Of a stretch of DNA of 64,000 bases, positions 22,625 to 55,268 are shown piece after piece. The stretch comes from an alpha proteobacterium HIMB59 (GTDB lineage: Bacteria; Pseudomonadota; Alphaproteobacteria; HIMB59): positions 1,178,001 to 1,242,000 of the forward strand of contig CP003801.1 in assembly GCA_000299115.1 (NCBI GenBank). The letters are read 5' to 3'. The position numbers and the translations under genes were made by a program. Every line of letters starts with the position of its first letter. The first letter of the stretch is position 1. The notes below the pieces were generated by a model. It worked only from the letters and a program-made list of their open reading frames with translations, searched no databases and had not been told where the DNA came from.

Positions 22625-23359
22625 TTATAAATTACTCATCCAATTAGTTAACTCTAACTCTCTTTGATAACTATTTTTACTCTCTAATATTTTTAATTGA
22701 TTAATGAGATCTATGAATTCATTTTCTAACATCTCATTAAGATAATTTTTTTTCCAGTAGAGCATTAATTTTCCAATGAAATCATAAGGTAATTCTGGAT
22801 GGTATTGCGTACAAACGATATTTGAATCCTTACTTGCAATAGCCTGAATAGAAACATCATTTTCAGCTAAAATGTTAAAGTTTGATGGCATTTTTTCAAT
22901 TACATCATAGTGATGTCCAGGAGCTGTGAAACCATCAGGCTTATTATCAAAAATATAATTATCAAATTTGATAAAAATATTTGGAGAAAAACCAAATTCT
23001 GGTTTTTTTGATTTAGATATTTTACCTCCACAAGCAGTAACTAAAACCTGAAGTCCCCAACAACTACCCCAAATGGGTTTGTTGATAGTTAATATATCTT
23101 CAGCAACTTTTAATTGTGAAATATTGAATTCATTTTTTTGATATATATTACCTAAACCACCTGTCCAAAAGAAAGCATCATATTCTGATAATTTTGGTAT
23201 GGAGAATTTATTACTATAAGTTTGATACAGATCCACAGTAGAATTCGGTAATTGGTTTAATATAATTTTTTTAAAAAAATCTGACTGAGGTGGGCAATTA
23301 GCCTTAATATGTTCTTTATCAGCAACACTATCCATTCCGCTGATAATTAAAAATTTCAA
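22625..23359 (-). CDS. Class I glutamine amidotransferase-like protein
   Basis: 244 residues. The catalytic triad of class I amidotransferases is visible: cysteine in WGSCWGLQVLV, and histidine and glutamate in CTQYHPELP. An AFFWTGGLGNIYQ oxyanion segment comes before. The stand-alone form resembles GuaA-like or PuuD-like gamma-glutamyl hydrolases. Next to a GS-like ligase this could cleave a gamma-glutamyl amide (inference). The start follows immediately after the stop of a 55-residue membrane-protein gene, so translation is probably coupled. Confidence 0.75.
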   Translation of the reverse strand: MKFLIISGMDSVADKEHIKANCPPQSDFFKKIILNQLPNSTVDLYQTYSNKFSIPKLSEYDAFFWTGGLGNIYQKNEFNISQLKVAEDILTINKPIWGSCWGLQVLVTACGGKISKSKKPEFGFSPNIFIKFDNYIFDNKPDGFTAPGHHYDVIEKMPSNFNILAENDVSIQAIASKDSNIVCTQYHPELPYDFIGKLMLYWKKNYLNEMLENEFIDLINQLKILESKNSYQRELELTNWMSNL

Positions 23360-23771: not shown

Positions 23772-25049
23772 TTATGTGTGAGCACGAAGCCCGAGTTCAG
23801 CACTGTCAATACCAGCTTCTTGAACGTGATCTGGTACTCTTAACCAATCCATCATTTTCATAATGAATGAAAGACCATAGCCAGGAACAAATCCCACTAG
23901 GAACATGACAATACATCCTACTAATTGACCACTAAAGCTAGATGCAGGAATATCTCCAGCAGCAGGGAATCCTGAAGCGAATATACCCATTGCTAATACA
24001 CCCCAAATACCAGCTACACCGTGAACAGCAATTGCTCCCACAGGGTCATCGATTTTGAAGACTCTATGTAAGAAGTCATTTGCAGGAATGATAATTACAC
24101 CACCTACAAAGCCTAATACAAAGGCTAAACCTGGATACCATACATCAAGACCTGATGCACAGGAGAAGATACCGGCAAGACCACCAGACATCATCCAGAA
24201 AGGATTACCCTTACTCATCCAGAAAGCACCGATCATACCGCCTGCTAAGCCCATAAGTGTATTGAATACAAATGAAGATAATGTAGCTGGAGCACCATAA
24301 ATGTTCACCCAACCGCCAAAATCAGCACCTGCCCAAATTAAACAACCACCTAAGAAACCAAAGAAACCGACAATGATCATTAACAAACCAATAAATGAGA
24401 ACCTAAGGTCATGACCTTCAAGTTCATTCATTGATCCATCACTATTGTATCTTCCTACTCTTGGTCCTAAATTTAGAACAACACCAAATGCAAACCAACC
24501 TGCAATCATGTGTACAACACCAGCAGCGGCAACATCGTGATATCCAAATTGAGTTACAAGCCATCCATCAGGGTGCCATCCCCAAGCAGCACCTAAGATC
24601 CAAGCAACAGAACCGAGTACGGTTGCTAAAAATACAAAAGCACTAATTCTTATTCTCTCAATTACAGCCCCTGAGAAAACTGATGCAGTAGTACAAGCAA
24701 AAAGTGTAAATGCAGCCCAGAAAACACCAGTTGCCTGGTCACTTAACATAGGGCCCATTGATACATTCCAAGGTGTTCCATATCCCTCTAAATCAATAGG
24801 GCTAAAACCACCTGGGAAAGCTAAATAGATATACCATCCGAATAACCAAAAAGTTGGTATCATGAAGGCAAAAGCTAAAAGGTTCTTAACACCGGATGAA
24901 ACTGCGTTTTTAAAACGCGAAGATCCCACCTCATACATTAAGAAGCCGACGTGAATTGCGATCATTAACGCAGTACACCACCAGTAGTATGCTTCCATAC
25001 CAACGTTGGCCTGCGTCATCACAAACACTTCTAGTTCTTCAAGTGTCAT
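23772..25049 (-). CDS. amt: Ammonium transporter, Amt family
   Basis: 425-residue inner-membrane channel with eleven predicted helices. The twin pore histidines are visible at about residues 180 (AAGVVHMIAGW) and 343 (AIAVHGVAGIWG), along with the phenylalanine-gate region. The N-terminal part up to MEAYYWWCTALMI is short and external. It moves ammonium and can carry methylammonium. It is divergent from gmaS, whose substrate is methylamine, so uptake of methylammonium is an attractive role (inference). A 58-residue membrane protein follows it. Confidence 0.94.
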   Translation of the reverse strand: MTLEELEVFVMTQANVGMEAYYWWCTALMIAIHVGFLMYEVGSSRFKNAVSSGVKNLLAFAFMIPTFWLFGWYIYLAFPGGFSPIDLEGYGTPWNVSMGPMLSDQATGVFWAAFTLFACTTASVFSGAVIERIRISAFVFLATVLGSVAWILGAAWGWHPDGWLVTQFGYHDVAAAGVVHMIAGWFAFGVVLNLGPRVGRYNSDGSMNELEGHDLRFSFIGLLMIIVGFFGFLGGCLIWAGADFGGWVNIYGAPATLSSFVFNTLMGLAGGMIGAFWMSKGNPFWMMSGGLAGIFSCASGLDVWYPGLAFVLGFVGGVIIIPANDFLHRVFKIDDPVGAIAVHGVAGIWGVLAMGIFASGFPAAGDIPASSFSGQLVGCIVMFLVGFVPGYGLSFIMKMMDWLRVPDHVQEAGIDSAELGLRAHT

Positions 25050-25152: not shown

Positions 25153-25207
25153 AACTATCAAGAGTGAAAATTATAAAAAAACCTAATTAAATCAGTGTTT
25201 TTTTGCT

Positions 25208-25226
25208 ATATGCAAGATTTGCATAT
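25208..25226. promoter_or_regulatory. Palindrome in the gmaS leader
   Basis: ATATGCAA-GAT-TTGCATAT is an 8-bp perfect inverted repeat with a 3-nt centre. It ends 8 nt before the gmaS ribosome site (AGAGGAG at 25234-25240). It could be an operator or, in RNA, a hairpin close to the ribosome site. Its half-site spacing does not fit NtrC, and its sequence differs from the IclR-like palindromes elsewhere in the window. Confidence 0.55.
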
Positions 25227-25247
25227 TTATATAAGAGGAGTTTAAAA

Positions 25248-26555
25248 ATGTCAGTCAACCTTCATCAATTTGCCAAAAAAAATGGCGTTAAATATTTCTT
25301 TGTCAGTTTTGTCGATCTTTTTGGGGTCTTAAGATCAAAATTAGTTCCGGCTACTGCCATCGATGAAATTCAATCTGAAGGTGCTGGCTTTGCGGGATTT
25401 GCAACTTGGCTTGATATGTCTCCTGCTGACTCAGATATGTTTGGAATGCCTGATGGAGATAGCGTTATCCAACTCCCTTGGAACAAAGAAATTGCCTGGG
25501 TAGCATCAGATCTTTATATGGATGGTAAACCTGTCGAGGCTTCACCTAGAATTGCACTCAAACGTCAAATTGAAAAGGCATCAAAAAAAGGTCTTTACAT
25601 GAAATCAGGGGTGGAATGTGAATTCTTCCTCGTTAATCAAGATGGCACAGCCCTATCCGATGATAAAGATATCCAATCCAAACCTTGTTATGACTCAGCA
25701 GCTTTAATGAGAAGGTATGATGTAATTACAGAAATTTGTGACTCAATGATATCTTTAGGTTGGGCCCCCTATCAGAATGACCATGAAGATGCCAATGGTC
25801 AGTTTGAAATGAATTGGGACTTCTCAGATTGCTTAGTTACTGCAGATAGACATGCATTCTTCAAATTTATGGTTAAATCCATTGCCGAAAAACACTCTTT
25901 GCGTGCAACATTTATGCCAAAACCTTTTACACATCTAACTGGAAATGGCTGTCATTGCCATGTTTCAGTATGGGATAAAACTGGTAAGAAAAATATGTTT
26001 TTAGATAATAAAGATGAATTAGGATTATCTAAAACGGGCTATAACTTTCTTGGTGGGATTATGGAAAGTGCAGATAAAATGGCTGCAGTATTTAACCCCA
26101 CTATCAACTCCTATAAAAGAATTAATGGTAGCGTGACAACTTCAGGTGCTACTTGGTCTCCAAGTTCAATTACTTGGGCAGGTAATAACAGAACCCATAT
26201 GGTTAGAGTTCCTGGTTCGGGCAGGTTTGAACTAAGATTAATGGATGGTGCCACTAATCCTTACTTACTCCAAGCCGGTATCATGCTCCTTGGACTTGAC
26301 GGTTTAGACAATAAAAGAGATCCAGGAAAACGATTAGACATCAATATGTACACTGAGGGTCATAAAGCAGGAAAAGTGAAGAAACTTCCTCTAAACCTTC
26401 TAGATGCGATTAGAGATTTTGATAAATCAAAAATCATAAGAGCGGGTTTTGGAGATGAGCTAGTAAATAGTTATGTAAAACTTAAAAACCAAGACTGGTC
26501 TACCTTTAACAAACACTTATCATCTTGGGAAAGAGAGACTACTTTAGATTGCTAG
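25248..26555 (+). CDS. gmaS: Gamma-glutamylmethylamide synthetase
   Basis: 435-residue GS-family ligase (type III group) that joins methylamine to glutamate with ATP, the first step of the indirect methylamine pathway. The start KYFFVSFVDLFGVLRSKLVP and GAGFAGFATWLDM is characteristic of GmaS. Core motifs SGVECEFFLV, NGQFEMNW, GNGCHCHVSVW, NNRTHMVRVP and RLMDGATNPYL are present. I choose the ATG at 25248, with an AGAGGAG ribosome site 7 nt upstream, over an in-frame TTG at 25203. It is separated from mgs/mgd by the second, paralogous module. Confidence 0.93.
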   Translation: MSVNLHQFAKKNGVKYFFVSFVDLFGVLRSKLVPATAIDEIQSEGAGFAGFATWLDMSPADSDMFGMPDGDSVIQLPWNKEIAWVASDLYMDGKPVEASPRIALKRQIEKASKKGLYMKSGVECEFFLVNQDGTALSDDKDIQSKPCYDSAALMRRYDVITEICDSMISLGWAPYQNDHEDANGQFEMNWDFSDCLVTADRHAFFKFMVKSIAEKHSLRATFMPKPFTHLTGNGCHCHVSVWDKTGKKNMFLDNKDELGLSKTGYNFLGGIMESADKMAAVFNPTINSYKRINGSVTTSGATWSPSSITWAGNNRTHMVRVPGSGRFELRLMDGATNPYLLQAGIMLLGLDGLDNKRDPGKRLDINMYTEGHKAGKVKKLPLNLLDAIRDFDKSKIIRAGFGDELVNSYVKLKNQDWSTFNKHLSSWERETTLDC

Positions 26556-27115
26556 TAGACTTATCGCCAGAAGTATTACAAGAAAAATTTCTTGATTGGC
26601 AATGTCAGTCAAGAATGAATGCTTTTAGAACGCAAGGAGGTAGGCCCAACACCTCCATGACACCTTATTTATTAGATGATAAAGGCAACGAGTACGCCCA
26701 AATTATTGTTGTGCTTGTAGAAAATGATTGTGAGGAAACAACAAGACTCTTTGAGTATAACTTTAAAAAAACATATGATCCTGCCGAAAGATACGACAAG
26801 ATTAATAAGTTTTTGTCATCTGAGTTCTTTTTGGATAAACATAAGTTTAGCGATGCTTTGTTTGCCACATTTCCAAAAAAGAATAAATTTATCTCGAAAA
26901 TAGTAAAAAAAGGTAAGTGTATCTTAGACTTCATTCATCTCTCAACTAATTATCGAATAGAGTGTACGCCTTTTATTTTAGATGAAGATGAAAATGCTTG
27001 GGAAAATGTTTTTTGGCATAATTTGAATTTTAATCCAGGTCTTAATAAAGACATAGATGTCATAAAATTTATTCCTAATTGGAAAAAGTCTAAACTTATT
27101 AGAATTTCTGAATAA
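26525..27115 (+). CDS. Hypothetical protein overlapping the end of gmaS
   Basis: Up to 196 residues. The frame opens at a TTG at 26525 inside gmaS; a second TTG at 26549 gives MLVDLSPEVLQEKFLDWQ and a shorter overlap, and is equally plausible. The product is soluble-looking and mixed in charge, with no signal peptide or membrane helix. Visible segments are SRMNAFRTQGGRPNTS, ECTPFILDEDENAWENVFW and NFNPGLNKDIDVIKF. I do not recognise the family. The overlap implies coupling to GmaS. A bidirectional terminator follows. Confidence 0.72.
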   Translation: MGKRDYFRLLVDLSPEVLQEKFLDWQCQSRMNAFRTQGGRPNTSMTPYLLDDKGNEYAQIIVVLVENDCEETTRLFEYNFKKTYDPAERYDKINKFLSSEFFLDKHKFSDALFATFPKKNKFISKIVKKGKCILDFIHLSTNYRIECTPFILDEDENAWENVFWHNLNFNPGLNKDIDVIKFIPNWKKSKLIRISE

Positions 27116-27165: not shown

Positions 27166-27648
27166 CTATTCGTTAAGCTTAAAGTTATCGCCTTTAACGT
27201 AAGTTTTCTTTAGTGCAACTAAAGGATGACTTGAAGACATCTGGAACTTAATCAAAAGTTCTCTTGCCAACATATCTCTTTCTTGCTGGCCTTTAGGTAG
27301 CTTCATTTTTGCTGGAACAGTAATCCAACCGTTTGCATTTCTGTCAAAAACAGCTGGCTTATCACCTTCATATCCCATATGAACGTCTTCTAACCAGTTA
27401 AGGTCATCCCAACCCATAGTCTCAATATATTTCTTTAAGAATGGTGTTAGTTTTTTGTAATCAGGAATTAAATTCACATCATATCGATAACCAATATGCT
27501 GTCCGATTGATTTTTCTCTTTCAGATTTAATATCCTTATCTTTTAACTTAGCACCACCTACGGCTTGATACTTTCCACCCTTTACTCCTAAAGAGAATGA
27601 TGACTTACTTGCTTTTTTAGTTTTCGTAGTTTTTTTTGCTTTTGCCAT
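27166..27648 (-). CDS. Unknown 160-residue protein ending the second amine module
   Basis: 160 residues. The first 20 are lysine-rich (MAKAKKTTKTKKASKSSFSL); the rest is a compact soluble domain with RYDVNLIPDYKKLTPFLKKY, TMGWDDLNWLEDVHMGYEG and FDRNANGWITVPAKM. I do not recognise the family. It follows the FMN subunit gene by 8 nt with a GGAGGAG-like ribosome site, so it is part of the same operon. It may be an extra subunit of the glutamate-synthase-like complex (inference). The MgsABC copy at 35850-38727 has no counterpart. Confidence 0.75.
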   Translation of the reverse strand: MAKAKKTTKTKKASKSSFSLGVKGGKYQAVGGAKLKDKDIKSEREKSIGQHIGYRYDVNLIPDYKKLTPFLKKYIETMGWDDLNWLEDVHMGYEGDKPAVFDRNANGWITVPAKMKLPKGQQERDMLARELLIKFQMSSSHPLVALKKTYVKGDNFKLNE

Positions 27649-27656
27649 TTCTCCTC

Positions 27657-28991
27657 CTATATTGAATGGTAGTTTTTAACACCAACAGTCATATCTGTTC
27701 CTGCTAAAGGAACTTTCGCCATAGCTGACGCTTCCATCGTTAATGCAGCTAAATCTTCTGGCTCTAGTGAGTGAAGATTTGTTTTACCACAAGCTCTTGC
27801 CATTAACTGTGCTTCTAGTGTCATAGTGTTAAGCATGTTATATACTCTCTCCGCCGCTTCAGTAGGATCTAATCTACTTCTAAGAACTGGGTCTTGAGTT
27901 GCTACACCAACAGGACATCTACCTGTATGACAGTGATAACAATATCCAGCTTCAACACCCATTTCCTTTTCGAAATCAGCTTCTGGTATGTCTTTGTTAC
28001 AGTTAAGGGCAATAAGACCAGCTGTACCAATAGCAATAGCATCTGCACCTAGTGCAAGCGCTTTCGCCATGTCAACACCATCTCTGATACCACCAGCATA
28101 AACAAGTGTAATATCTCCTGATTTTCCAACATCATCTAGAGCTCTTCTAGCTTCTCTAACTGCTCCGATACCAGGGATACCTGTATTTGCCGCTGCAACG
28201 TGAGGTCCAGCACCAGTTGAGCCTTCCATAGAGTCTAAGAAAATAGAGTCAGGATCACACTTAGCTGCCATTCTGACGTCATCATAAACTCTTGAAGCTC
28301 CAAGTTTTAATTGGATTGGAACTTGATTATCTGTTAACTCTCTTAATTCAGCAACTTTCAGTGCTAGATCATCCGGACCCATCCAGTCTGGATGTCTTGC
28401 TGGTGATCTTTGGTCGATACCAGCAGGTAAAGATCTCATTTCTGCAACCTGATCAGTCACCTTTTGACCCATTAAGTGTCCACCCATACCAACTTTTTGA
28501 CCTTGTCCGATAAATACTTCAATAGCATCCGCTAGCTGAGCGTGGTGTGGATTAAATCCGTATCTGGATTGGATACACTGGTAATACCATTTATTTGAGT
28601 ATCTTCTCTCATCAGGAATCATACCACCTTCACCAGAACAAGTAGCGCTACCAGCCATAGTTGCGCCTCTAGCTAAAGCTGTTTTCGCTTCATAAGATAA
28701 CGCACCAAAACTCATACTTGTAATATAAACAGGTATGTCTAATTTAATTGGGTTTTTAGCTCTTGGGCCGATAACAGTTTCTGTTAAACATTTCTCACGA
28801 TATCCCTCAATAACAAAACGTGTAAGAGTACCAGGAAGGAAAGTTAAATCATCCCAGTGAGGAATTTTTTTCATGAGAGCCATACCTCTCATTCTGTATC
28901 TTCCTAACTGCGCCTTAATATGGATATCATCCATGACGTCAGGAGTGAAGATTGCATTTTTACCTAAAAGTGTTGTATTTCTTTTTGCCAT
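27657..28991 (-). CDS. Glutamate-synthase-like FMN subunit (MgsC paralogue)
   Basis: 444 residues of the FMN-binding glutamate synthase fold. Visible are YREKC, MSFGALSYEAKTALARGA, the flavin-site VYAGGIRDGVDMAKALALGADAI, and the cysteine cluster CYHCHTGRCPVGVATQDP for a 3Fe-4S centre. It aligns along its length with the second copy at 35850 and is clearly paralogous, not a recent duplicate. With its two neighbours it could transfer an amine from glutamine or a gamma-glutamyl amide onto 2-oxoglutarate or glutamate. Automatic annotation might call it MgsC; its partner ligase differs from GmaS, so I leave the symbol open. Confidence 0.82.
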   Translation of the reverse strand: MAKRNTTLLGKNAIFTPDVMDDIHIKAQLGRYRMRGMALMKKIPHWDDLTFLPGTLTRFVIEGYREKCLTETVIGPRAKNPIKLDIPVYITSMSFGALSYEAKTALARGATMAGSATCSGEGGMIPDERRYSNKWYYQCIQSRYGFNPHHAQLADAIEVFIGQGQKVGMGGHLMGQKVTDQVAEMRSLPAGIDQRSPARHPDWMGPDDLALKVAELRELTDNQVPIQLKLGASRVYDDVRMAAKCDPDSIFLDSMEGSTGAGPHVAAANTGIPGIGAVREARRALDDVGKSGDITLVYAGGIRDGVDMAKALALGADAIAIGTAGLIALNCNKDIPEADFEKEMGVEAGYCYHCHTGRCPVGVATQDPVLRSRLDPTEAAERVYNMLNTMTLEAQLMARACGKTNLHSLEPEDLAALTMEASAMAKVPLAGTDMTVGVKNYHSI

Positions 28992-28999
28992 TGTATCTC

Positions 29000-29839
29000 C
29001 TAACCTAATATTCCTTTTCTTTCACTTGGCTCTAAGTTGTCATAGTTCCAAAGTTTTTTACCAGCAACATATTTTTTGAACTTACTGACAGGTGTCTTAG
29101 AATTAATCTCTGCATTATTTAGTTTCTGCTCAAGCCATCTGATTTCGTATTCATTCATTTCGCCTTCAACACAGTCACTACCAAGAGACTTGACTTCACC
29201 GCCAACAAAAATCATGCCGTCATACATGGAGTCACCCATGTTTGCACTGACATCACCGCAAACAATAATTCTTCCTCTTTGCATCATGAAACCAGTAAAT
29301 GCTCCAGCGTTTCCACCAATAATGATAGTTCCGCCTTTCATATCAATACCAGTTCTTGCGCCAGCATTACCTTTTACGATCAAATCGCCACCTCTCAGTG
29401 CGGCACCAAAACATGATCCAGCGTTGTTTTCGACTAGAACTTTACCTGCCATCATATTTTCAGCACAGGACCATCCCACTCTACCTTTAACTCTAACAGT
29501 AGGGCCGTCGATGCAACCAACTCCGAAATAACCTAAACTACCTTCAAATATAATGTTTAGCTTGTTTAGGATACCTACTCCAAGAGAGTGTTTTGCACCA
29601 GGATTTTTAATTACAACAGTTCCATAGCCTTTTTTCATTGCATCTCTGATCTTTTGATTAAGATCTCTTGCTTCTAGGTCTGTGCAATCAATTGAAGTTC
29701 TTTTATTAAAATCAACGTCTACATTACCGTAATATGTATAATTCTCTTCTTCAGTAGGGTTAAAGAAAAGTTGTTGCGTTCTTCCAGTTAAATTTTCATC
29801 AGAAAAAGCTAAATTTTCTTTTTTTGCTATACCTGCCAT
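29000..29839 (-). CDS. Glutamate-synthase-like GXGXG subunit (MgsB paralogue)
   Basis: 279 residues with the right-handed beta-helix repeats of the glutamate synthase C-terminal domain (GNAGARTGIDMKGG, GNAGAFTGFMMQRG, GDVSANMGDSMYDG). It has a longer N-terminal extension than the other copy (279 versus 226 residues). It overlaps the amidotransferase subunit gene by 13 nt and precedes the FMN subunit gene by 8 nt, giving the order expected of a split glutamate synthase. Confidence 0.82.
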   Translation of the reverse strand: MAGIAKKENLAFSDENLTGRTQQLFFNPTEEENYTYYGNVDVDFNKRTSIDCTDLEARDLNQKIRDAMKKGYGTVVIKNPGAKHSLGVGILNKLNIIFEGSLGYFGVGCIDGPTVRVKGRVGWSCAENMMAGKVLVENNAGSCFGAALRGGDLIVKGNAGARTGIDMKGGTIIIGGNAGAFTGFMMQRGRIIVCGDVSANMGDSMYDGMIFVGGEVKSLGSDCVEGEMNEYEIRWLEQKLNNAEINSKTPVSKFKKYVAGKKLWNYDNLEPSERKGILG

Positions 29840-30768
29840 ACTTTTACCTCCGCTTCATATGGATCGTAAGTTTTAATTTCATGAGGGAAGATATTTCTGA
29901 TTGCTACTTCCTCAGAGGCACATGCAACAATATCCTTACTTTCGTAAATTACCATTGGCTTAGCAGCCATGTAGTCTTTTGCCATACCTAGTTGATCTTT
30001 AGTTGCAACAACGTATGTAAAAACACCATCTAGCTCGTCTAAGCTATCATGCATTGCCTGTTCTAATTCAATGCCTCTTGCCATTTTGTCCGCAATATAA
30101 ACAGCAATAATTTCAGAGTCGCAATTTGAATTGAAACGGTAACCTTTTCTCTCCAATACTCTTCTGTTACCCCAATAGTTAGTTAACTGACCATTGTGCA
30201 CAACAGATACGTCTTCAAAAGGGAAAGCCCAATATGGGTGAGCAGACTTAATATCGACATCAGACTCTGTAGCCATACGGGTATGGCCAATACCATGAGT
30301 TCCCATAAATTTACCAAGACCATATTGATCTGCTACAGTTGTAGCATCTCCCAGATCTTTGATTAACTCTAAGCCTTTTCCAATTGATAAAATTTCAGTT
30401 TTTTCAACAGTCTCAATTTCAGTAGCCAATCCTGTAAGATCGCCCTTGAAATCAAATTCATATCGAAAAGCGTATGGAGTGCTGGAGCTTTGTTTGGTTA
30501 CCTTTGCGCCATGTTTTTTCATGATCGCATCAACCTGACTTTTTCTTTCTTTTAATTGTTCAGGTGAGTCAATGACAGCTTTGACTTTTTCTGCTTCATT
30601 TTCTGAAATTTTGAATCTCATCACGAAGCCTTTTTTCTTTGGTGTACCATACATAGCATATCCAGTTGAGTCCGGACCTCTATGTTTTAGACCTTGAAGC
30701 ATCAAGCGCATTTGCTCGCCTACATTCACAGTCTTTTTTCTGTTAATTACTCCAGCTATTCCACACAT
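29827..30768 (-). CDS. Class II glutamine amidotransferase subunit (MgsA paralogue)
   Basis: 313-residue Ntn-type amidotransferase. Cys2 is the nucleophile (MCGIAGVINRKK). RGPDSTGYAMY, IGHTRMATESDVDIKSAHP and SVVHNGQLTNY form the glutamine site, and NSNCDSEIIAVY follows. It would release the amide nitrogen or amine and channel it to the FMN subunit. It lies 21 nt after the GS-like ligase gene. It is longer than the MgsA copy at 37849 by about 20 residues and is clearly diverged from it. Confidence 0.82.
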   Translation of the reverse strand: MCGIAGVINRKKTVNVGEQMRLMLQGLKHRGPDSTGYAMYGTPKKKGFVMRFKISENEAEKVKAVIDSPEQLKERKSQVDAIMKKHGAKVTKQSSSTPYAFRYEFDFKGDLTGLATEIETVEKTEILSIGKGLELIKDLGDATTVADQYGLGKFMGTHGIGHTRMATESDVDIKSAHPYWAFPFEDVSVVHNGQLTNYWGNRRVLERKGYRFNSNCDSEIIAVYIADKMARGIELEQAMHDSLDELDGVFTYVVATKDQLGMAKDYMAAKPMVIYESKDIVACASEEVAIRNIFPHEIKTYDPYEAEVKVWQV

Positions 30769-30789
30769 ACTTTTCTATCTCCTTTGTTA

Positions 30790-32259
30790 TTATGGTAAGC
30801 AGTCTAAGTACTTATCGAGATCCCATTGAGTTGGAGTTGCTAGGAACTCTTCCCACTCGTCTCTCTTATATTCCATAAATACTTTCATCATGTCGCCAGG
30901 AAGTGCTTCTTGGATCACTTTATCAGTCTCTAAACGATCTAACGCTTCACCAAGAGTCATCGGAAGTTTTTCAACTTGCTTTCCAGCTTTCATTTGTTCA
31001 TACATATTATTCTGTTCAGGTTTGCCTGGATCCATCTTCTTTGTGATACCATGGTCAAACGCTTTTAGAAGACCTGCGCCCATTAGGTATGGATTATGAG
31101 CTGAGTCAACAGAACGATACTCAAAACGACCAGGGGCCGAAACACGTAAACCACATGTTCTGTTCTGATAACCCCAGTCAGCGTAAACAGGAGCCCAGAA
31201 GCCAGTATCCCAAAGTCTTCGATATGAGTTCACAGTAGAAGAACCTAAAGCAGTTAAGGCTGGTAAGTGTTCCATAACACCACCAATTGCTTGAAGTCCT
31301 ACTTTACCAGGAATTCTTCTATCTTTTCCATCTGGCATGAATACGTTTGTTCCACCTCTTCTATGATGGAAAACATTTTCCATACCTGGAATATCTTTGT
31401 TTCCACAAGGAACAATTTCATCTTTTCCACCCTTCCAAAGAGAAATATTTGTGTGACAACCAGAAGCTGAAACACCAACGAAAGGCTTACTTAAGAAACA
31501 TGCAATAAGATTAAACTCTCTTGCAACCTGAGCACAAATTTGACGATATGTAGATAATCTATCTGCATTTCTGACAACATCATCATAGTTAAAGTTTAAC
31601 TCTAACTGACCTGGTGCATCCTCGTGATCACCTTGAATAATATCAAGACCCATTGCTCGTGAGTACTCAATAACCTTCATATAAACAGGTCTTAATGACT
31701 CAAATTGATCAATGTGATAACAATATGGCTTTGAGAAACCTGAGCCTGTTGGTGTACCATCTTCATTTTTAGTCAACCACATCATCTCTGGTTCTGTACC
31801 AGCTCTTAATTCAAGCTTGTGCTTTTTTTTGAAATCTTCGTGAATTCTTTTTAGATTTCCACGACAGTCAGAAGTTAAGTATCCACCCGGATCATTTTCT
31901 TCTTCTCTGTTTCGGAAACAAGTACAAAAAACTCTAGCGATTCTCTTGTCCCAAGGAATCTGAACAAAAGTTTCAGGATCAGGAATACCAACTAGCTCGT
32001 GAGCCTCTGGTCCATATCCGATATAATCACCATGTCTATTTGTAAAAAGGTTAGCAGTTGCTCCGTAAACTAATTGGAAACCTTTGTTCGCAACACTTTC
32101 CCAGTGATCAGCTGGAACGCCTTTACCAACAATTCTTCCGGTAACAGAGATAAACTGATAATAAATATACTCAATACCGAGTTTATTTATTTTTGCTCTT
32201 ACCTTCTTTATATATTCTTGTCTTTTCTTATCCTTAACGTACGTTTCTAATGCTGTCAT
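30790..32259 (-). CDS. Glutamine-synthetase-like ligase of the second amine module
   Basis: 489 residues, a GS-family member distinct from GlnA, GmaS and the gene at 20914. Core motifs are present: AGTEPEMMWL, DAPGQLELNFNYDD, SASGCHTNISLW in place of the GlnA histidine loop, YQNRTCGLRVSAPGRFEYRS and SAHNPYLMGAGLL. An insertion with HHRRGGTNVFMPDGKDRRIP is unusual. The N-terminal helix is basic (KDKKRQEYIKKVRAKIN). It is followed by three glutamate-synthase-like genes and preceded by an FAD oxidoreductase, copying the logic ligase, amine transfer, oxidation of the methylamine route. The amine is unknown. Confidence 0.8.
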   Translation of the reverse strand: MTALETYVKDKKRQEYIKKVRAKINKLGIEYIYYQFISVTGRIVGKGVPADHWESVANKGFQLVYGATANLFTNRHGDYIGYGPEAHELVGIPDPETFVQIPWDKRIARVFCTCFRNREEENDPGGYLTSDCRGNLKRIHEDFKKKHKLELRAGTEPEMMWLTKNEDGTPTGSGFSKPYCYHIDQFESLRPVYMKVIEYSRAMGLDIIQGDHEDAPGQLELNFNYDDVVRNADRLSTYRQICAQVAREFNLIACFLSKPFVGVSASGCHTNISLWKGGKDEIVPCGNKDIPGMENVFHHRRGGTNVFMPDGKDRRIPGKVGLQAIGGVMEHLPALTALGSSTVNSYRRLWDTGFWAPVYADWGYQNRTCGLRVSAPGRFEYRSVDSAHNPYLMGAGLLKAFDHGITKKMDPGKPEQNNMYEQMKAGKQVEKLPMTLGEALDRLETDKVIQEALPGDMMKVFMEYKRDEWEEFLATPTQWDLDKYLDCLP

Positions 32260-32277
32260 TATATTCCTCCTTTAACA

Positions 32278-33624
32278 TCAGCTCCAAGGGAACGGGCTAT
32301 TTGAGACCGGATGTAGTTTCCCTTCTTGGTATCGAGAAAATCTGAAAGGTTCTAGAATTTCAGACTTGCTCCCTAGTACTTCATCAGATACTAAATCGCC
32401 AACACCTGCCATTTTGTATCCATGATTTGCGTCTGCAATGATATAAACGTTTTCTCTGTATTGGTCGAACACAGGGAAACGATCAGGAGTCACACATCCT
32501 ATTCCACCAGCTTTTTGGTTCTTATACTTTGCGTGACAGCCATCAAATTGTTTCTGACAAAAAGCCAGAGCCGAAGTAAACTTATCTTCAAATGCAGGTC
32601 TTGGCTGAAATTCTTCAGACTCATGACCATAAGGATCTAATTTAACCTCAGATGCAGGCTTAGCGACATCATAAGGAGAAGACCCTCCTTGAATACCATT
32701 ACGGTAAACATCAGGCTTATAATAAAAGCCCCACATTTCATTTTCATGAATTACATCACCTGATTTATTGGAAACCAATGTCGCTTCAGTATCGACATGA
32801 ATAACAGGATACTCTGTTCCTTTAGCGGTTCGATAACTATTAGGATCAACATCAATTTCACCCTCTTCAAGTGCCATGTAAGACCACATTGGAATTTCAT
32901 CTGTGAATGTTCCATCAGGTTGTTTAATTTTTACAGAATTAGGAAGATCAAGCATTTCCCAAAAAGTTCTAACCCAAGGACCAGCAGCTACAACTAGTTG
33001 TGAGCATTCGATTGTTCCTTGGTTAGTTTCCACGGCGCTCACTGCCCCACTGCCATTAGCAGTGACAAGATTGGTAGCTTGAACACCTTCAAGAATTTTT
33101 GCACCAGCTGCTTCTGCTAGTTTTTTGAAACCTAAGTTAGCACCTCTATTAGGTCCATAACCAGAATTTTTTTCATGAAGAACAGAAGTGATACCTTGCG
33201 CTTGCCAATCAGGTAAAAGCTCTTTCATATATTTATCACAGTCAGCTGCGCCCTCAATAAATGTGGAGTCATATCCAATTTCTTTTTGCTGATGATAAAC
33301 TTCCGCCATTCCCTCGTGCATGAGCTGAGAATTAATTTGCATGTAACCGACAGGTCTAAATTGAAGAGCTTCAGCGTTTGCGTTCCAAACATCAACTGAG
33401 TGAGCCATTAATCGACGCATCGCAGGTTGGTAGTAGTTGTTTCTAACGATACCACAAGCAACACTAGTTGCACCTTCACCAACTTTTGTTTTTTCTATAA
33501 CAACAACAGAATCTTCTTTTAGTTGACCTTTGCTGGATAACTTTTTACATAAGTGCCAAGCTGTGCTTAAGCCATGAATACCACCACCTATTATTAGGTA
33601 TTCACATTTAGACGGTAAACTCAT
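32278..33624 (-). CDS. FAD-dependent amine/N-alkyl amino acid oxidoreductase
   Basis: 448 residues of the DAO/SoxB-like FAD family. The dinucleotide fold is near the start (EYLIIGGGIHGLSTAWHLC), followed by VVIEKTKVGEGATSVACGIVRNNYY, a position where SoxB and MgdA have GGGNVGRNTT. The C-terminal FAD contact is NVYIIADANHGYKMAGVGDLV. No GcvT domain is present, so any formaldehyde made is not passed directly to THF. It is the first gene of the second module, with a GGAGG ribosome site, and a palindromic operator lies 59 nt upstream of its ATG. Substrate unknown; an N-alkyl glutamate is a reasonable guess. Confidence 0.8.
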   Translation of the reverse strand: MSLPSKCEYLIIGGGIHGLSTAWHLCKKLSSKGQLKEDSVVVIEKTKVGEGATSVACGIVRNNYYQPAMRRLMAHSVDVWNANAEALQFRPVGYMQINSQLMHEGMAEVYHQQKEIGYDSTFIEGAADCDKYMKELLPDWQAQGITSVLHEKNSGYGPNRGANLGFKKLAEAAGAKILEGVQATNLVTANGSGAVSAVETNQGTIECSQLVVAAGPWVRTFWEMLDLPNSVKIKQPDGTFTDEIPMWSYMALEEGEIDVDPNSYRTAKGTEYPVIHVDTEATLVSNKSGDVIHENEMWGFYYKPDVYRNGIQGGSSPYDVAKPASEVKLDPYGHESEEFQPRPAFEDKFTSALAFCQKQFDGCHAKYKNQKAGGIGCVTPDRFPVFDQYRENVYIIADANHGYKMAGVGDLVSDEVLGSKSEILEPFRFSRYQEGKLHPVSNSPFPWS

Positions 33625-33720: not shown

Positions 33721-34491
33721 TTAGTTATCAACAATAAGCTTAGATATTTTAATTGAAGCACTTTGTAGCAGCTTTACGTAGTCAATAGTATTTTTAGGAT
33801 TCATAATATTCCTGCTTCCTGATAAAGAGATTCCTGCAAAAGATCTTTTTTCCTTATCGAGAATAGCCACACCAATGCCATAGGTATTCTCAAATGCTTC
33901 ACCATGATTTAATGAATAACCTTGAGTTCTAATTTTGAGCAACTCTTTTTTTAAATCATTTAAATTATGGATAGTGTTTCTTGTATGTGGAAAGAAATTG
34001 TAACTTTTATAAATCGATGAAATTTCATTTTCAGGTCGATAAGCAAGCATTACCTTTCCTAAAGCACAACAATGCGCATCCATTCTCATTCGAAAAGTTC
34101 GATGAGAAGCATCGCTATTAACGTGAGATATTTTATCAGAATGTACGATCTGCGATCCTTCAAGCATTGCAAGGTAAGTAATTAAATTTGTTTGATTAGA
34201 TACGTCTTCTAAAATTTCTTTGGATGCCTCAGAAATTGATTGAAGATAATCAGAAGTTTCACCAAATTGAAAAGCTTTATGCCCCATTGTATAAGTGTTA
34301 GAAGAATTATTTTTATGAATATATCCTAACTGTGTTAAAACAAACAAAAGTCGAAAAGTCGTTGTTCGAGACATTGATGCTTTGCGAGAAATTGTTGCTG
34401 CCTTTTGTGGAAAAATAGACTTTGATAATATTTCTAAAATTTTAAATGACTTTTCTAATGACTTATTAATATATTTTAAATCACCAGTCAT
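33721..34491 (-). CDS. IclR-family transcriptional regulator
   Basis: 256 residues. An N-terminal winged helix-turn-helix (KAATISRKASMSRTTTFRLLFVLTQLGYI) is followed by an IclR effector domain (MRMDAHCCALGKVMLAY, GYSLNHGEAFENTYGIGVAI, AGISLSGSRN). Members sense small organic ligands. It lies between the two amine modules, all on the minus strand. Palindromes fitting its family occur before its own gene, before the second module and before mgdA, so it is the likely common regulator. The ligand could be a methylated amine or a gamma-glutamyl derivative (inference). Confidence 0.92.
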   Translation of the reverse strand: MTGDLKYINKSLEKSFKILEILSKSIFPQKAATISRKASMSRTTTFRLLFVLTQLGYIHKNNSSNTYTMGHKAFQFGETSDYLQSISEASKEILEDVSNQTNLITYLAMLEGSQIVHSDKISHVNSDASHRTFRMRMDAHCCALGKVMLAYRPENEISSIYKSYNFFPHTRNTIHNLNDLKKELLKIRTQGYSLNHGEAFENTYGIGVAILDKEKRSFAGISLSGSRNIMNPKNTIDYVKLLQSASIKISKLIVDN

Positions 34492-34559: not shown

Positions 34560-35846
34560 TTATAAGAATTTATTTTCAAAATTTTCTTTAAAACGGTAAT
34601 ACCAGCCAAGCAGTGGTAATAGTTTAACTATCAAAGATTTAAAATAGTTTTTGTCATTCTTGATTTTTGAAATAATAAGATCGGTATTTTGATTTGTTGT
34701 AAGCATATTTGCTGCCTGATAACCAAGATAAGGCATAAGAGCAACTCCACTGCCATTGCATCCTAAAACAAAAATTTTATTATTAGTTTTTTTAACCATC
34801 GGAAGAGTATTGAACGTTACTCCTACTTTGCCGCCCCATATGTAATCAATCGAAAAATTATCAATATCTGGCAAGATTAAGCTTATTTTTTTATAAAAAA
34901 AAGATTTCACCATATTGCTATTCTCCATTCCATAGGCCCAAACAGGAAAAGCTCCAAACAATATTCTCTTGTGATCTGGAGATGGGCGAAAGTAATACAA
35001 GTCGTTTTTACTATCGGAATACATTCGTAATTTTGGCAGAAGTTTTTGAACCTTCTCTTGCCCTAATATATTTGTTGCCGCAATATAAGAAGGCACACCA
35101 ATGATATTATAATGTTCATTTCCAATATCCTTTTCTGAGTAACCATTAGTAGCTATAATAAGATATTGCGTTCTAATCTTACCCTCTGAAGTTTTTAGCA
35201 CATAGTATTCATCAATTTTTTTATGTGATAACAGTTTACATGGACTAAAAATATCAACTTTATTTGAAAGAGCTTTATCTAAAAAAAAATTATATAGCTT
35301 AGCAGGATTAACACTGGCAGCATTTTTTACCAGCATCCCTCCTTTATAATAGTTATTGTTAATTTCACTTTCTAAGTTTTCAATTATTTCAATTTGTAAA
35401 TTTGATAAAGAATTAAGAAGATTTGTTTTTTGTCTCAATGCATCTAATTTTTTTCTGCTATGAGCTAAAACTAATCTTCCAGTTTTTTGATAGGATACTT
35501 CCTCTTGGTGATGATTAATTTGATCTTCTAAATATTCATATGATCCAATGGACTCTTGGATAAACTTCTTAGCAAGATCTTCTCCATAATCTTTAAAAAG
35601 ATTAATTTTTTTTCCTAAATTTAAACCCCCTGAAACCATTCCAGCGCTTCTAGTACTTGCGCCTTCCCCTAATGCTATTTGGTCAATGATTAGAGTTTTT
35701 AGACCTTTTGAAGAAGCTTGAATAGCAGCGTTCACACCCGTATATCCGGCACCGACGACTACTAGGTCGTATAAAGAATTTGCAACTTGAGTATTTTGAA
35801 AGTGATAAGGTTTATAAAATTCCCACCAATATGGATAAGTTTTCAA
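34560..35846 (-). CDS. FAD-dependent oxidoreductase, PuuB-like
   Basis: 428 residues of the DAO family, closest by eye to gamma-glutamylputrescine oxidase-like proteins: YDLVVVGAGYTGVNAAIQ near residue 27, then GEGASTRSAGMVSGGLNLGK, the mid-protein YYFRPSPDHKRILFGAFP, and FVLGCNGSGVALMPYLG at the FAD end. The start appears to be a TTG at 35846, 3 nt after the mgsC stop. It belongs to the mgd-mgs operon. PuuB oxidises a gamma-glutamyl amine, so oxidation of another gamma-glutamyl amine or of dimethylamine-derived product is possible, but substrate is unknown. Confidence 0.8.
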   Translation of the reverse strand: MKTYPYWWEFYKPYHFQNTQVANSLYDLVVVGAGYTGVNAAIQASSKGLKTLIIDQIALGEGASTRSAGMVSGGLNLGKKINLFKDYGEDLAKKFIQESIGSYEYLEDQINHHQEEVSYQKTGRLVLAHSRKKLDALRQKTNLLNSLSNLQIEIIENLESEINNNYYKGGMLVKNAASVNPAKLYNFFLDKALSNKVDIFSPCKLLSHKKIDEYYVLKTSEGKIRTQYLIIATNGYSEKDIGNEHYNIIGVPSYIAATNILGQEKVQKLLPKLRMYSDSKNDLYYFRPSPDHKRILFGAFPVWAYGMENSNMVKSFFYKKISLILPDIDNFSIDYIWGGKVGVTFNTLPMVKKTNNKIFVLGCNGSGVALMPYLGYQAANMLTTNQNTDLIISKIKNDKNYFKSLIVKLLPLLGWYYRFKENFENKFL

Positions 35847-35849
35847 AAC

Positions 35850-37169
35850 TTAAAGTTCGTGGCCAGGTATCCAATTAGTTCCAGCCAAAGGAACACGAGC
35901 CATGGCAGCAGCTTCGACTGTAAGAGCGGCTAAATCCTCTGGCTCAAGGTTTCGAACATCAGATTTGCCATTAGCTCTTGCTAGAGTTTGTAACTCCAGA
36001 GTCAAAGTAGCTAAATAATTCTTAACTCGTTTACCTGCTAGTTCGGGTTCAAGTCTTTTTTCTAATTCGGGGTCTTGAGTAGCCACACCGACTGGACACT
36101 TGCCTGTATGGCAATGATGACAGTAACCTGCAGCTGTACCGAGTTTTTCATAATCTTCAGGATACATATCTGCGTTACAGTTTAAGGCAATCATTGCAGC
36201 CGACCCGATTGAAACAGCATCTGCGCCCATCGCCATCGCTTTTGCAACATCTGCCCCAGATCGAATTCCACCAGAGACGATTAATTGAACCTTTCGGTGC
36301 ATATTTAGTTCCTTCAATGAGTCAACCGCTTCTCTCAAAGCGCCAAGGGTTGGGATACCTACGTGCTCGATGAAAACATCCTGTGTAGCTGCAGTACCGC
36401 CTTGCATACCGTCCAAGACGACCACGTCCGCACCCGCCTTAACGGCTAATGCTGTATCATAGTAAGCTCGCGCTGCACCAACTTTTACATAAATAGGTTT
36501 TTCCCAATTTGTAATTTCTCTTAGTTCTTGAATTTTTATTTCCAAATCATCTGGACCTGTCCAATCAGGGTGGCGACAAGCACTTCGCTGATCAATACCC
36601 TCAGGTAAATTCCGCATCATAGCAACTCGTTCGTTAATCTTTTGTCCAAGAAGCATACCGCCTCCTCCAGGTTTTGCGCCCTGACCTACAACAACTTCGA
36701 TTGCATCTGCTTTTCTTAGATCATCAGGGTTCATTCCATATCTAGATGGTAATAGCTGATAGACTAGATACTTAGAAGATTTTCTTTCCTCGGGTGTCAT
36801 GCCCCCATCTCCTGTAGTTGTAGAAGTTCCCATAGCAGAAGCGCCTCTTCCTAAAGCATCTTTAGCATTAGCTCCCAAAGCCCCAAAGCTCATTCCTGCT
36901 ATTGTAATAGGGATATCAAGCGTTATTGGTTTTTTGGCATATCGATCACCAATTACAACAGATGTATTACATTTTTCTCGATATCCCTCTAGCGGATATC
37001 TTGATGCTGAAGCACCTAAAAAAACTAAATCATCAAAATTAGGAACTTTTCTTTTAGCTCCCAATCCACGAATTTGATAAATTCCTTCTCTAGCTGATCG
37101 TTGAATTTCCGCAATGGTATCGTGAGGAAAAGTACTGAAACCTTTTAAATTTTTTTTATTATCACTCAT
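35850..37169 (-). CDS. mgsC: N-methylglutamate synthase, FMN subunit
   Basis: 439 residues with the FMN glutamate synthase fold: YREKC, IAGMSFGALGANAKDALGRGA, LIVSGGIRSGADVAKAMAMGADAV, and the Fe-S cysteine cluster CHHCHTGKCPVGVATQDP. With MgsA and MgsB it converts gamma-glutamylmethylamide into N-methylglutamate. The gene directly follows mgsB with a one-base overlap and lies in the same operon as mgdABCD, which supports the specific assignment better than sequence alone would. Confidence 0.88.
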   Translation of the reverse strand: MSDNKKNLKGFSTFPHDTIAEIQRSAREGIYQIRGLGAKRKVPNFDDLVFLGASASRYPLEGYREKCNTSVVIGDRYAKKPITLDIPITIAGMSFGALGANAKDALGRGASAMGTSTTTGDGGMTPEERKSSKYLVYQLLPSRYGMNPDDLRKADAIEVVVGQGAKPGGGGMLLGQKINERVAMMRNLPEGIDQRSACRHPDWTGPDDLEIKIQELREITNWEKPIYVKVGAARAYYDTALAVKAGADVVVLDGMQGGTAATQDVFIEHVGIPTLGALREAVDSLKELNMHRKVQLIVSGGIRSGADVAKAMAMGADAVSIGSAAMIALNCNADMYPEDYEKLGTAAGYCHHCHTGKCPVGVATQDPELEKRLEPELAGKRVKNYLATLTLELQTLARANGKSDVRNLEPEDLAALTVEAAAMARVPLAGTNWIPGHEL

Positions 37170-37849
37170 TAATAACTACTCACATTATCAATTTTAAAAT
37201 TATATAAATTTCTTGCTGAACCATACCTTTTAAATTTCTTAGGATCAGCTTTAATATTTTGAGCTTTTAAAATTGAACTTAGATGTTTGATTTCTTTTTC
37301 ATTCATCTCTTTTTCAATACAGTCTGCACCGAGACTTTTTACTTTGCCTAAACAATAAATCTTAGCCTCATAAATTGAGTCTCCGAGGTATTCATCTGCA
37401 TCGCCCAAAATTACTAAATTCCCACTTTGTGCCATAAAAGCAGACATATGGCCTACAGAACCTTTTACAATAATATCAATTCCTTTCATCGAAATACCAC
37501 ATCGAGAACTAGCATCACCATCGATAACTAAAGTGCCTCCATGTCCTGTTGCGCCAGCCGATTGAGAAGCGTTGCCTTTAACATGAACTAAGCCCGACAT
37601 CATATTTTCAGCCACGCCTGTTCCGACATTTCCTTCTATAATTATGTTTGCGTTCTTATTCATGCCAGCACAGTAGTAGCCTACATGGCCTTTTATAGTT
37701 ACTTGAACTTCATCTTGTAGGCCCGCACATAACGCATGATTACCTTGTGGGTTTTTAATGACAAATTCTCTTTGATTAGATTTTGGATCTATTTTTTGTA
37801 AGAAAGAGTTGACTTCAGTAAGTGATTTTTTTGAAAGATCAAAATTCAT
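37169..37849 (-). CDS. mgsB: N-methylglutamate synthase, GXGXG subunit
   Basis: 226 residues of the glutamate synthase beta-helix domain. Repeats include GNVGTGVAENMMSG, GNASQSAGATGHGG, GSVGHMSAFMAQSG and GDADEYLGDSIYEA, closing with SLGADCIEKEMNEKE. It is shorter at the N-terminus than the other copy. Single-base overlaps with mgsA and mgsC indicate strict co-translation. Confidence 0.87.
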   Translation of the reverse strand: MNFDLSKKSLTEVNSFLQKIDPKSNQREFVIKNPQGNHALCAGLQDEVQVTIKGHVGYYCAGMNKNANIIIEGNVGTGVAENMMSGLVHVKGNASQSAGATGHGGTLVIDGDASSRCGISMKGIDIIVKGSVGHMSAFMAQSGNLVILGDADEYLGDSIYEAKIYCLGKVKSLGADCIEKEMNEKEIKHLSSILKAQNIKADPKKFKRYGSARNLYNFKIDNVSSY

Positions 37850-39325: not shown

Positions 39326-39326
39326 T

Positions 39327-42326: not shown

Positions 42327-42591
42327 TAAAATCCTCATTCATTTTACATGTTGAAAAAATCTCATGTGTTGCAGTATCTCTTGATGCTTTGAACCACTGG
42401 CGACATCCAGAAACATGTTGCCAAAGTTCAGTGTGTTTTCCTCTAGGGTTATCTCTGAAGTAAACAAAGTCATCCCAATCCTTAGTAGAAATTTCTTCTC
42501 CTAGAGCTGGTCTTTTTATGTTTCCATCTCCACCATAGGAAAATTCATTTTGAGATCTCTTCCCGCAATAAGGGCATTTAATTTCTAGCAT
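42319..42591 (-). CDS. mgdB: N-methylglutamate dehydrogenase subunit B (SoxD-like)
   Basis: 90 residues matching the delta subunit of sarcosine oxidase. The CPYCG motif at the N-terminus and the later GCRQWF and STCK cysteines form the zinc site, and NPRGKHTELWQH is the family signature. It is a small structural subunit. It sits between mgdA (3-nt gap) and mgdC (8-nt overlap). Confidence 0.9.
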   Translation of the reverse strand: MLEIKCPYCGKRSQNEFSYGGDGNIKRPALGEEISTKDWDDFVYFRDNPRGKHTELWQHVSGCRQWFKASRDTATHEIFSTCKMNEDFNE

Positions 42592-42594
42592 GAC

Positions 42595-43851: not shown

Positions 43852-43870
43852 ATGGATTCCTAACTTCACT

Positions 43871-55190: not shown

Positions 55191-55218
55191 TTTTATTTAT
55201 TTATCTCCTGAAATTTAT

Positions 55219-55255: not shown

Positions 55256-55268
55256 GAATAAAGTATTA

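Follow-up and report, generated by a model that had tools for sequence, protein, structure and literature searches.

The described systems closest to the locus considered here are the N-methylglutamate pathway (GmaS, MgsABC, and MgdABCD), in which an amine is ligated to glutamate, re-formed as an N-alkylglutamate, and oxidized, and the dimethylamine (DMA) monooxygenase DmmDABC. The locus lies in the genome of alpha proteobacterium HIMB59, which is one contig of 1,410,127 bases (label G000), and was analyzed within a stretch of 64,000 nucleotides (CP003801.1; G000:C1:1178001-1242000), referred to below as the window. It consists of six minus-strand genes encoding a flavin adenine dinucleotide (FAD) oxidoreductase (FADox), a glutamine synthetase (GS)-like ligase, three subunits resembling a split glutamate synthase (GlxB, GlxC, and GlxD), and a protein of 160 residues (orf160). 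An earlier note, made from the DNA letters alone, had read these genes as a second gamma-glutamyl-amine module parallel to the methylamine pathway, with ethylamine, ethanolamine, a polyamine, or DMA as examples of its substrate. We lean toward reading the six-gene operon as a module for DMA demethylation and nitrogen assimilation via glutamate-bound intermediates, the substrate, intermediates, and reaction order being deduced from gene patterns and residues.

In the accessible part of Lidbury 2017 (PMC5520151), the DMA step that follows import and demethylation of trimethylamine N-oxide (TMAO) in SAR11 is described as a metabolic bottleneck bearing on marine aerosol, and dmmDABC is reported missing from all SAR11 representatives screened. 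According to the accessible part of a 2022 paper (PMC8918994), HTCC1062 shows noticeable growth on TMAO as the sole nitrogen source, much weaker than that on ammonium; the authors identified no homologue of dmmDABC in this strain and supposed a Dmm isoenzyme. The operon is a concrete candidate for this DMA step and stands in a fitting genomic place. In literature searches whose coverage leaves out most subscription papers and preprints, no on-topic paper was found by title and abstract start for gamma-glutamyl-dimethylamide or dimethylglutamate, and no title or abstract start among the matches listed for DMA with SAR11/Pelagibacter or N-methylglutamate names such an operon.

A candidate route for dimethylamine

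DMA is proposed as the substrate because it is the product of TMAO demethylase (Tdm), any genome with Tdm requires a way to process it, and those that bear the module show no Dmm. FADox is apparently built for N-alkyl amino acids, so DMA would first have to be placed on an amino acid, a task for which a GmaS-like ligase and an Mgs-like synthase would be suited. In the proposed sequence, the ligase would couple DMA to the gamma-carboxyl group of glutamate at the expense of ATP, giving gamma-glutamyl-dimethylamide. The Cys2 amidotransferase of GlxB would then free DMA inside the GlxBCD complex (with orf160), where the flavin mononucleotide (FMN) of GlxBCD would reductively condense it with 2-oxoglutarate to yield N,N-dimethylglutamate and glutamate. 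The flavoprotein would oxidize one N-methyl group to formaldehyde, leaving N-methylglutamate, which MgdABCD would convert with tetrahydrofolate (THF) to glutamate and methylene-THF. A demethylation of N,N-dimethylglutamate that yields the Mgd substrate fits the genomes in which FADox and Mgd genes are neighbors, and also G244 and G137, which have no GmaS.

The earlier note's idea of a pathway for another amine is supported, as neither of the two findings that it had named as refuting it was obtained: by its residues, the ligase is not an ordinary GS, and the genes stay together in relatives. The term “parallel” has to be amended, as the two pathways probably converge at N-methylglutamate and share Mgd. 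Among the amines that the earlier note had listed, DMA is the one favored by the neighboring genes for Tdm, trimethylamine (TMA) monooxygenase (Tmm), and TmoXWV and by a near exclusion with the Dmm marker. The operon, conserved in many Alphaproteobacteria, among them the abundant SAR11 bacteria of the ocean, is probably a route of DMA breakdown. In genomes with Tdm, for instance those of SAR11 and of the organism of the window, it would take the place of the DMA monooxygenase (Dmm). The wider proposition, that a glutamate-bound DMA route replaces DMA monooxygenase in SAR11 and in about one-tenth of the sampled Alphaproteobacteria, with a synthase that doubles as an N-methylglutamate synthase where MgsABC is missing, is a close call that we put forward tentatively. 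If the route is as drawn, the N-methylglutamate pathway would exist in a further, novel version, and gene surveys with dmm as the sole DMA marker would overlook many marine DMA users.

Co-occurrence with Tdm, Tmm, and the Dmm marker

In a sample of 385 Alphaproteobacteria genomes, the ligase (threshold, E 1e-70) was found in 40. G315 and G422 were dropped because their only ligase copies (L189 and L187, respectively) have no GlxBCD beside them, leaving 38 module genomes that span 20 families. Of these 38, 36 have GlxBCD next to the ligase: the window, G040, and 34 further loci. The other two, G243 and G395, are cut short by a contig end within the ligase or immediately behind it. Tdm (E ≤ 1e-200) is present in 27 of the 38 module genomes versus 7 of the 347 others (Fisher P = 2e-26) and Tmm in 17 versus 4 (P = 8e-16), although these two P values and those given below for the GmaS-positive and GmaS-negative subsets overstate the association, as the genomes share ancestry and are not independent. 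Tdm or Tmm is near the module in 13 of the 34 further loci. In G395, contig C17 (L256, 1-5119) begins inside the ligase; FADox and a DAO-like gene come next, followed by an incomplete Tmm gene that the genome-wide Tmm search missed.

GmaS is also linked to Tdm (27/69 versus 7/316; P = 1e-16). The association of Tdm with the module holds both among GmaS-positive genomes (22 of 29 with the module versus 5 of 40 without it; P = 2e-7) and among GmaS-negative ones (5 of 9 versus 2 of 307; P = 1e-7). This argues against the alternative that the substrate is another small amine (ethylamine, ethanolamine, or similar) and that the association with Tdm stems from a common lifestyle, as do the adjacency of the module to Tdm or Tmm and the exclusion of the Dmm marker described below. 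We regard that alternative as rather unlikely, although the nearest paralogues of the ligase adjoin P450, ABC transporter, or type 1 amidotransferase genes and not Tdm.

The Dmm marker, PF11927, was searched for in the 47 genomes with the ligase or Tdm, and a best match with an E of ≤2e-50 was counted as strong. Strong matches are found in none of the 27 genomes with both Tdm and the module versus five of the seven with Tdm and no module (P = 8e-5). None is found in the 11 module genomes without Tdm, and one is present in G315, which has the paralogue only. The PF11927 gene lies about 4, 9, and 1 kb from Tmm in G332, G302, and G359, respectively. A single 20-kb stretch of G302 holds tdm, tmm, gmaS, mgsCBA, amt, a GcvT-like gene, a DmmA-like reductase gene (PF22290), and HODM (PF11927), with no module; in this canonical cluster, the Dmm genes occupy the place held by the module elsewhere. 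The HODM and DmmA-like reductase domains are both absent from the module proteins in Pfam searches.

Operon structure and conservation

The six open reading frames (ORFs) lie on the minus strand where the earlier note had placed them, and their Pfam domains agree with its account of their content. Their intergenic gaps of 18, 21, -13, 8, and 8 nucleotides indicate an operon-like arrangement. Conservation was followed in a set of close relatives, the best-scoring 80 of at least 592 relatives (named genome contigs), comprising 18 HIMB59-like and 62 Pelagibacteraceae loci. GlxBCD and orf160 follow the ligase in all eligible loci of both groups (15/15 and 53/53, respectively). Among eligible Pelagibacteraceae loci, FADox is directly upstream in 57 of 57, an Amt gene lies downstream in 47 of 47, and GmaS is within 10 kb in 44 of 44. 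Tdm is directly upstream on the same strand in 40 of 49 of these loci, a TmoW-like ATPase is found in 39 of 41, and MgsC is downstream in 7 of 44.

GlxB, GlxC, and GlxD likewise accompany the ligase in all 34 further module loci of the wider sample, and orf160 is found in 31 of them, the remaining 3 being on contigs of <10 kb. With GlxBCD and orf160 kept beside the ligase across the close relatives, and GlxBCD in these 34 loci, the grouping of the genes is not due to chance.

Ligase

Against the GmaS model TIGR03105 (type III glutamate--ammonia ligase), the module ligase reaches 302.2 bits, missing the cutoff of 469.6, and two of its relatives score 290.7 and 302.8 bits; on the GlnA model TIGR00653, it scores 247.1 bits and misses the cutoff of 429.15. 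The accessible part of PMC7948447, whose residue numbering is used here, places Tyr147, Gln175, Asp177, Glu179, Glu186, Asn188, Lys30, and the flap Trp300 in the amine pocket of RhGmaS or close to it; Arg312 and Arg288 were left out of the comparison, as they are not placeable with simple numbering. In an alignment of 53 proteins, all 35 module ligases included have the GmaS-type residues at these positions, with Trp in the column of the GS flap Glu. They do not have the ammonium-site Asp50 of GS, showing Val in that column. The claim of the earlier note that the ligase differs from GmaS in its substrate loop therefore stands in part: the Asp50 loop has Leu-Val instead of Phe-Ala and Ile replaces Tyr174, which is an ATP-phosphate residue in RhGmaS according to the accessible part of PMC7948447, but the compared amine-site residues are the same. 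The ligase tree places the module ligases and their paralogues in one clade (support, 100/100) separate from GmaS, although the tree joins long branches, which leaves the deep placement and the sister group of the module ligases unsure. Judged by sequence, the module ligase is neither an ordinary GS nor GmaS and yet has a GmaS-like amine site, and it is proposed to be a gamma-glutamyl-dimethylamide synthetase.

The domain content taken by itself would also suit an ordinary ammonia-using GS with a split glutamate synthase. That reading is very improbable and was set aside in view of the residues, the scores, and the ordinary enzymes encoded in the same genome. The ligase lacks both Asp50 and the flap Glu and has Asp177 and Asn188 as in GmaS, GlxD is closer to MgsC than to GltB, an ordinary GlnA with the GS residue pattern is encoded in the window (1919-3334; 656.7 bits), and an ordinary GltB is encoded elsewhere. 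A polyamine (PuuA) reading was likewise dropped, the score for gamma-glutamylputrescine synthetase being 229 against a cutoff of 650; the accessible part of a paper on SAR11 polyamine use (PMC8437039) makes no mention of glnT, glxB, or glutamine synthetase.

The 1.41-Mb HIMB59 genome carries seven GS-family genes, of which only the one at 1919-3334 of the window clears the GlnA cutoff. A third GS-like ligase gene (window 20914-22311, minus strand) stands beside a type 1 amidotransferase gene (22625-23359, minus strand). It occurs in 15 of the 18 HIMB59-like loci and has an active-site motif of neither the GS nor the GmaS type; the two genes possibly form another gamma-glutamylation pair. Ligase paralogues without GlxBCD (L187 to L192, L118, and L119) adjoin another GS-like gene, mostly together with an ABC transporter ATPase gene. 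Plasmid copies in Paracoccus and Ruegeria have type 1 amidotransferase genes nearby, and Ruegeria also has a P450 gene; GlxBCD was not found by blastp in these plasmid stretches. Plasmid stretches of Rhodococcus and Gordonia were assessed from an incomplete gene table only, and the Streptomyces stretch is unannotated. In Gordonia sp. KTR9 pGKT2 (L121, 10001-11131), a GS-like stretch runs into an FAD oxidoreductase gene, flanked by two cytochrome P450 genes.

GlxBCD and orf160

GlxBCD has the three-way split of MgsABC, with a GATase subunit bearing Cys2, a GXGXG subunit, and an FMN/3Fe-4S subunit on separate genes, unlike the single long polypeptide of GltB. GlxD is 53% identical to MgsC versus 32% to the GltB of its own genome, GlxC is 41% identical to MgsB over 191 residues, and GlxB is 31 to 32% identical to MgsA. 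All 41 aligned GlxB sequences keep Cys2, and all 40 aligned GlxD sequences keep the three cysteines of the FeS motif. In the tree of the FMN subunit, 44 GlxD rows stand apart from 12 MgsC rows, with fork support of 100/99 for MgsC and only 80/91 for GlxD. In trees of this subunit and of the ligase, a check that the earlier note had suggested, both proteins group apart from their methylamine counterparts. On sequence, GlxBCD is more similar to the N-methylglutamate synthase MgsABC than to glutamate synthase. An ordinary GltB is encoded at C1:560729-565138 (1692 bits), so GlxBCD is not the sole glutamate synthase of the genome.

No match to orf160, listed in the earlier note as an unknown protein, was found in Pfam, NCBIfam, or PHROGs, and a comparison with PDB profiles gave a single chance-level match (E 0.072). 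Among 36 sequences, 50 of its 160 positions are invariant. Its predicted structure has a mean pLDDT (predicted local distance difference test) of 52.7, from a shallow alignment of 19 sequences. We propose that orf160 is an accessory of GlxBCD.

Flavoprotein

As the earlier note had stated, the operon has a single flavoprotein without a THF domain, here placed in the DAO family. FADox scores 66.1 bits on the soxB model TIGR01373 (sarcosine oxidase/N-methylglutamate dehydrogenase beta), short of the cutoff of 529.45. Among proteins of solved structure, it is nearest to L-proline dehydrogenase beta, sarcosine oxidase beta, and dimethylglycine dehydrogenase. Its predicted structure is of low quality (mean pLDDT, 56.2, from a shallow alignment of 20 sequences), and Foldseek searches with it returned DAO family proteins at 14 to 21% identity in the 50 rows shown. 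R61 and K404 are invariant in all 39 aligned homologues and line up with one Arg and one Lys residue in sarcosine oxidase beta, the pair that binds the substrate carboxylate in that enzyme; the Lys has no Lys partner in the alignment with L-proline dehydrogenase beta. The pair points to an N-alkyl amino acid as the substrate and not a free amine, and FADox is proposed to be an N,N-dimethylglutamate demethylase.

FADox was found genome-wide in 33 of the 38 module genomes and in 25 of the 34 further module loci. In seven module genomes (L198 to L204), it is separated from the ligase by >5 kb or sits on a different contig; in five of these (L198 to L202), Mgd genes are found no more than about 3 kb away from it, with Amt between them in four. 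It is away from Mgd in L203, at a short contig end, and in L204, where it is beside Amt and GmaS. These positions bear on the alternative that the flavoprotein oxidizes free DMA to monomethylamine (MMA) and formaldehyde while the rest of the module handles MMA. We consider this quite unlikely, given the Arg/Lys pair with its presumed carboxylate role, the amino acid substrates of the solved relatives, and the nearness of FADox to Mgd in five genomes; moreover, it would render a second ligase and GlxBCD superfluous wherever GmaS and MgsABC are both present. It would nevertheless also account for the Dmm exclusion and the adjacency to Tdm, and the accessible part of PMC8918994 proposes an isoenzyme that turns DMA into MMA.

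Counterevidence and links to methylamine use

Several observations weigh against the glutamate-bound DMA route. Tdm is directly upstream of the module in none of 16 HIMB59-like loci and is 16 kb away in the window. Eleven of the 38 module genomes (including G243, which is only 64% complete) have no Tdm at the threshold used, so another source of DMA or another amine must be assumed for them, and the alternative of a different small amine gains to that extent. Few genomes underlie the Dmm exclusion, PF11927 also covers proteins other than Dmm, and its matches in G073 and G210 are off the Tdm/Tmm contigs. Weak PF11927 matches of 51 to 59 bits occur in G000 and G040, two of the 27; that of HIMB59 is a 237-residue ORF beside a TauE gene, and no DmmA-like match was found among the four ORFs scanned around it. 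G046 and G384 have Tdm but neither the module nor strong PF11927; the contig of G046, which also has a weak PF11927 match, stops at Tdm, and G384 is unexplained. FADox was not found in five of the 38 module genomes (G122, G128, G243, G361, and G415), of which G415 is 98% complete and carries Tdm, and G210 has FADox (C23, L197), Tdm, and strong PF11927 but no module. Finally, GmaS has no adjacent MgsABC in 16 of the 29 module genomes that have it, so the main job of GlxBCD could be in methylamine use.

The corresponding figure for genomes without the module is 1 of 17 (P = 0.001), the 17 being those examined among 40 GmaS-positive genomes without the module, with a weak second copy in G332 (L241) excluded. 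MgsABC is near GmaS in 13 of the 29 module genomes, counting the window and G040, where the distance is about 9 to 10 kb. In G130 and, among the 17, in G171, a Glx-like set of about 40% identity stands in place of adjacent MgsABC. G257 (one contig, 99% complete, with the Pelagibacteraceae gene order) holds GmaS, the module, Tdm, Tmm, TmoXWV, and Mgd in 78 kb, and MgsABC was not found within the 78 kb around this cluster. Since GmaS often has no adjacent MgsABC, GlxBCD may act on both amides and may also work for GmaS in genomes without a neighboring MgsABC. At E 1e-125, GmaS was not found in G244 (98% complete) or G137 (100%), two genomes that carry the module as well as Mgd-like genes.

These data raise the alternative of a second methylamine route, with the ligase as an alternative GmaS, GlxBCD as an alternative MgsABC feeding Mgd, and a flavoprotein with some other task. 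It would suit the difference between 16/29 and 1/17, as GlxBCD may use gamma-glutamylmethylamide, as well as the GmaS-type amine-site residues of the module ligase and the three genomes (G128, G137, and G244, each at least 95% complete) with the module and no GmaS. We give it a modest chance and consider it unlikely, because true GmaS is kept in 29 of the 38 module genomes, 13 of which also keep MgsABC nearby, and because it leaves the exclusion of the Dmm marker, the link with Tdm, and the FADox gene unexplained. The glutamate-bound DMA route remains the reading that we prefer.

Surrounding genes in the window

The window holds genes for the conversion of TMA via TMAO to DMA and of MMA to glutamate, without a named DMA step (Table 1). 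The naming of the Mgd genes (38732-43869) rests on their position beside MgsABC, the soxD-like subunit being outside the search. A DAO family flavoprotein gene between the IclR gene and MgsC (34560-35846, minus strand) is absent in all 17 HIMB59-like loci that hold both neighbors and is probably a local insertion. Two further genes lie between Tmm and Tdm: a Rieske oxygenase gene (45607-46752, plus strand; GbcA-like, under the cutoff) and a gene for a GcvT-like folate protein (46784-47968, minus strand) that could capture formaldehyde.

Table 1. Features of the operon and its surroundings (window positions)
Feature	Position	Strand	Remarks
Amt-family transporter	23772-25049	-	TIGR00836, 209 bits, under cutoff of 343.3; recurrent neighbor
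True GmaS (gamma-glutamylmethylamide synthetase)	25203-26555	+	TIGR03105, 643.7 bits, cutoff 469.6; likely start 25248
orf196 (uncharacterized gene convergent with module)	26525-27115	+	25-38% identical counterparts in 18/34 distant module loci
orf160 (conserved protein of no matched family)	27166-27648	-	160 aa
GlxD (FMN + 3Fe-4S subunit, MgsC-like)	27657-28991	-	444 aa; Glu_synthase PF01645, 286 bits
GlxC (GXGXG subunit, MgsB-like)	29000-29839	-	279 aa; PF01493
GlxB (class II glutamine amidotransferase subunit, MgsA-like)	29827-30768	-	313 aa; GATase_6/7
Ligase, LIG (GS-like, GmaS-like)	30790-32259	-	489 aa; Gln-synt_C; under every NCBIfam cutoff listed
FADox (FAD oxidoreductase)	32278-33624	-	448 aa; DAO family, PF01266, 123.8 bits; no THF domain
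IclR-family regulator, immediately upstream of operon	33721-34491	-	IclR_C + HTH_IclR
MgsC, MgsB, MgsA (N-methylglutamate synthase)	35850-38727	-	Named from homology and gene order
soxG-like Mgd gene	38732-39325	-	TIGR01375, 74.0 bits, cutoff of 143.95 missed
soxA-like Mgd gene	39327-42338	-	TIGR01372, 1322.6 bits, cutoff met
soxB-like Mgd gene	42595-43869	-	TIGR01373, 699.2 bits, cutoff met
Tmm, trimethylamine monooxygenase	44081-45418	+	NF058570, 816.1 bits, cutoff 675
Tdm, TMAO demethylase (makes DMA)	49426-51777	-	NF053776, 1162.9 bits, cutoff 1100
TmoXWV-like ABC transporter	52112-56210	-	Choline/betaine-type permease, ATPase, and binding-protein matches; name from position beside Tdm

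Comparison with known systems

The accessible part of Sun 2011 (PMC3160333) proposes SAR11_1313-1316 (glxBCD-glnT) for methylamine and lists SAR11_1304 as “monomeric sarcosine oxidase” beside SAR11_1303. SAR11_1313-1316 belong to the same protein families as the module but, judged from the gene order in L030, L052, and L057 rather than from the HTCC1062 sequence, look like MgsABC-GmaS and not the module. The reading of SAR11_1316 as the module ligase was dropped, as the order in these three loci makes a true GmaS likelier. SAR11_1304/1303 would, from gene order, fit FADox beside Tdm.

FADox has the DAO fold in common with sarcosine oxidase beta, L-proline dehydrogenase beta, and dimethylglycine dehydrogenase. 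It differs from them in having no folate domain and in its low identity (14 to 21% in the Foldseek rows shown), and it shares the Arg/Lys pair with sarcosine oxidase beta but not the Lys with proline dehydrogenase. The module would hold the same place in the pathway as DmmDABC, consuming the DMA made by Tdm, but no homologous parts are seen, and Dmm yields free MMA whereas the module would yield N-methylglutamate.

The N-methylglutamate pathway takes the same three steps as those proposed here with homologous parts, sharing with the module a split glutamate-synthase-like complex and a sarcosine-oxidase-type flavoprotein. The module is set apart from it by a ligase clade of its own (100/100), a separate group of FMN subunits, orf160, the link with Tdm, and a single flavoprotein without a THF domain that would act ahead of MgdABCD, with DMA as the proposed substrate.

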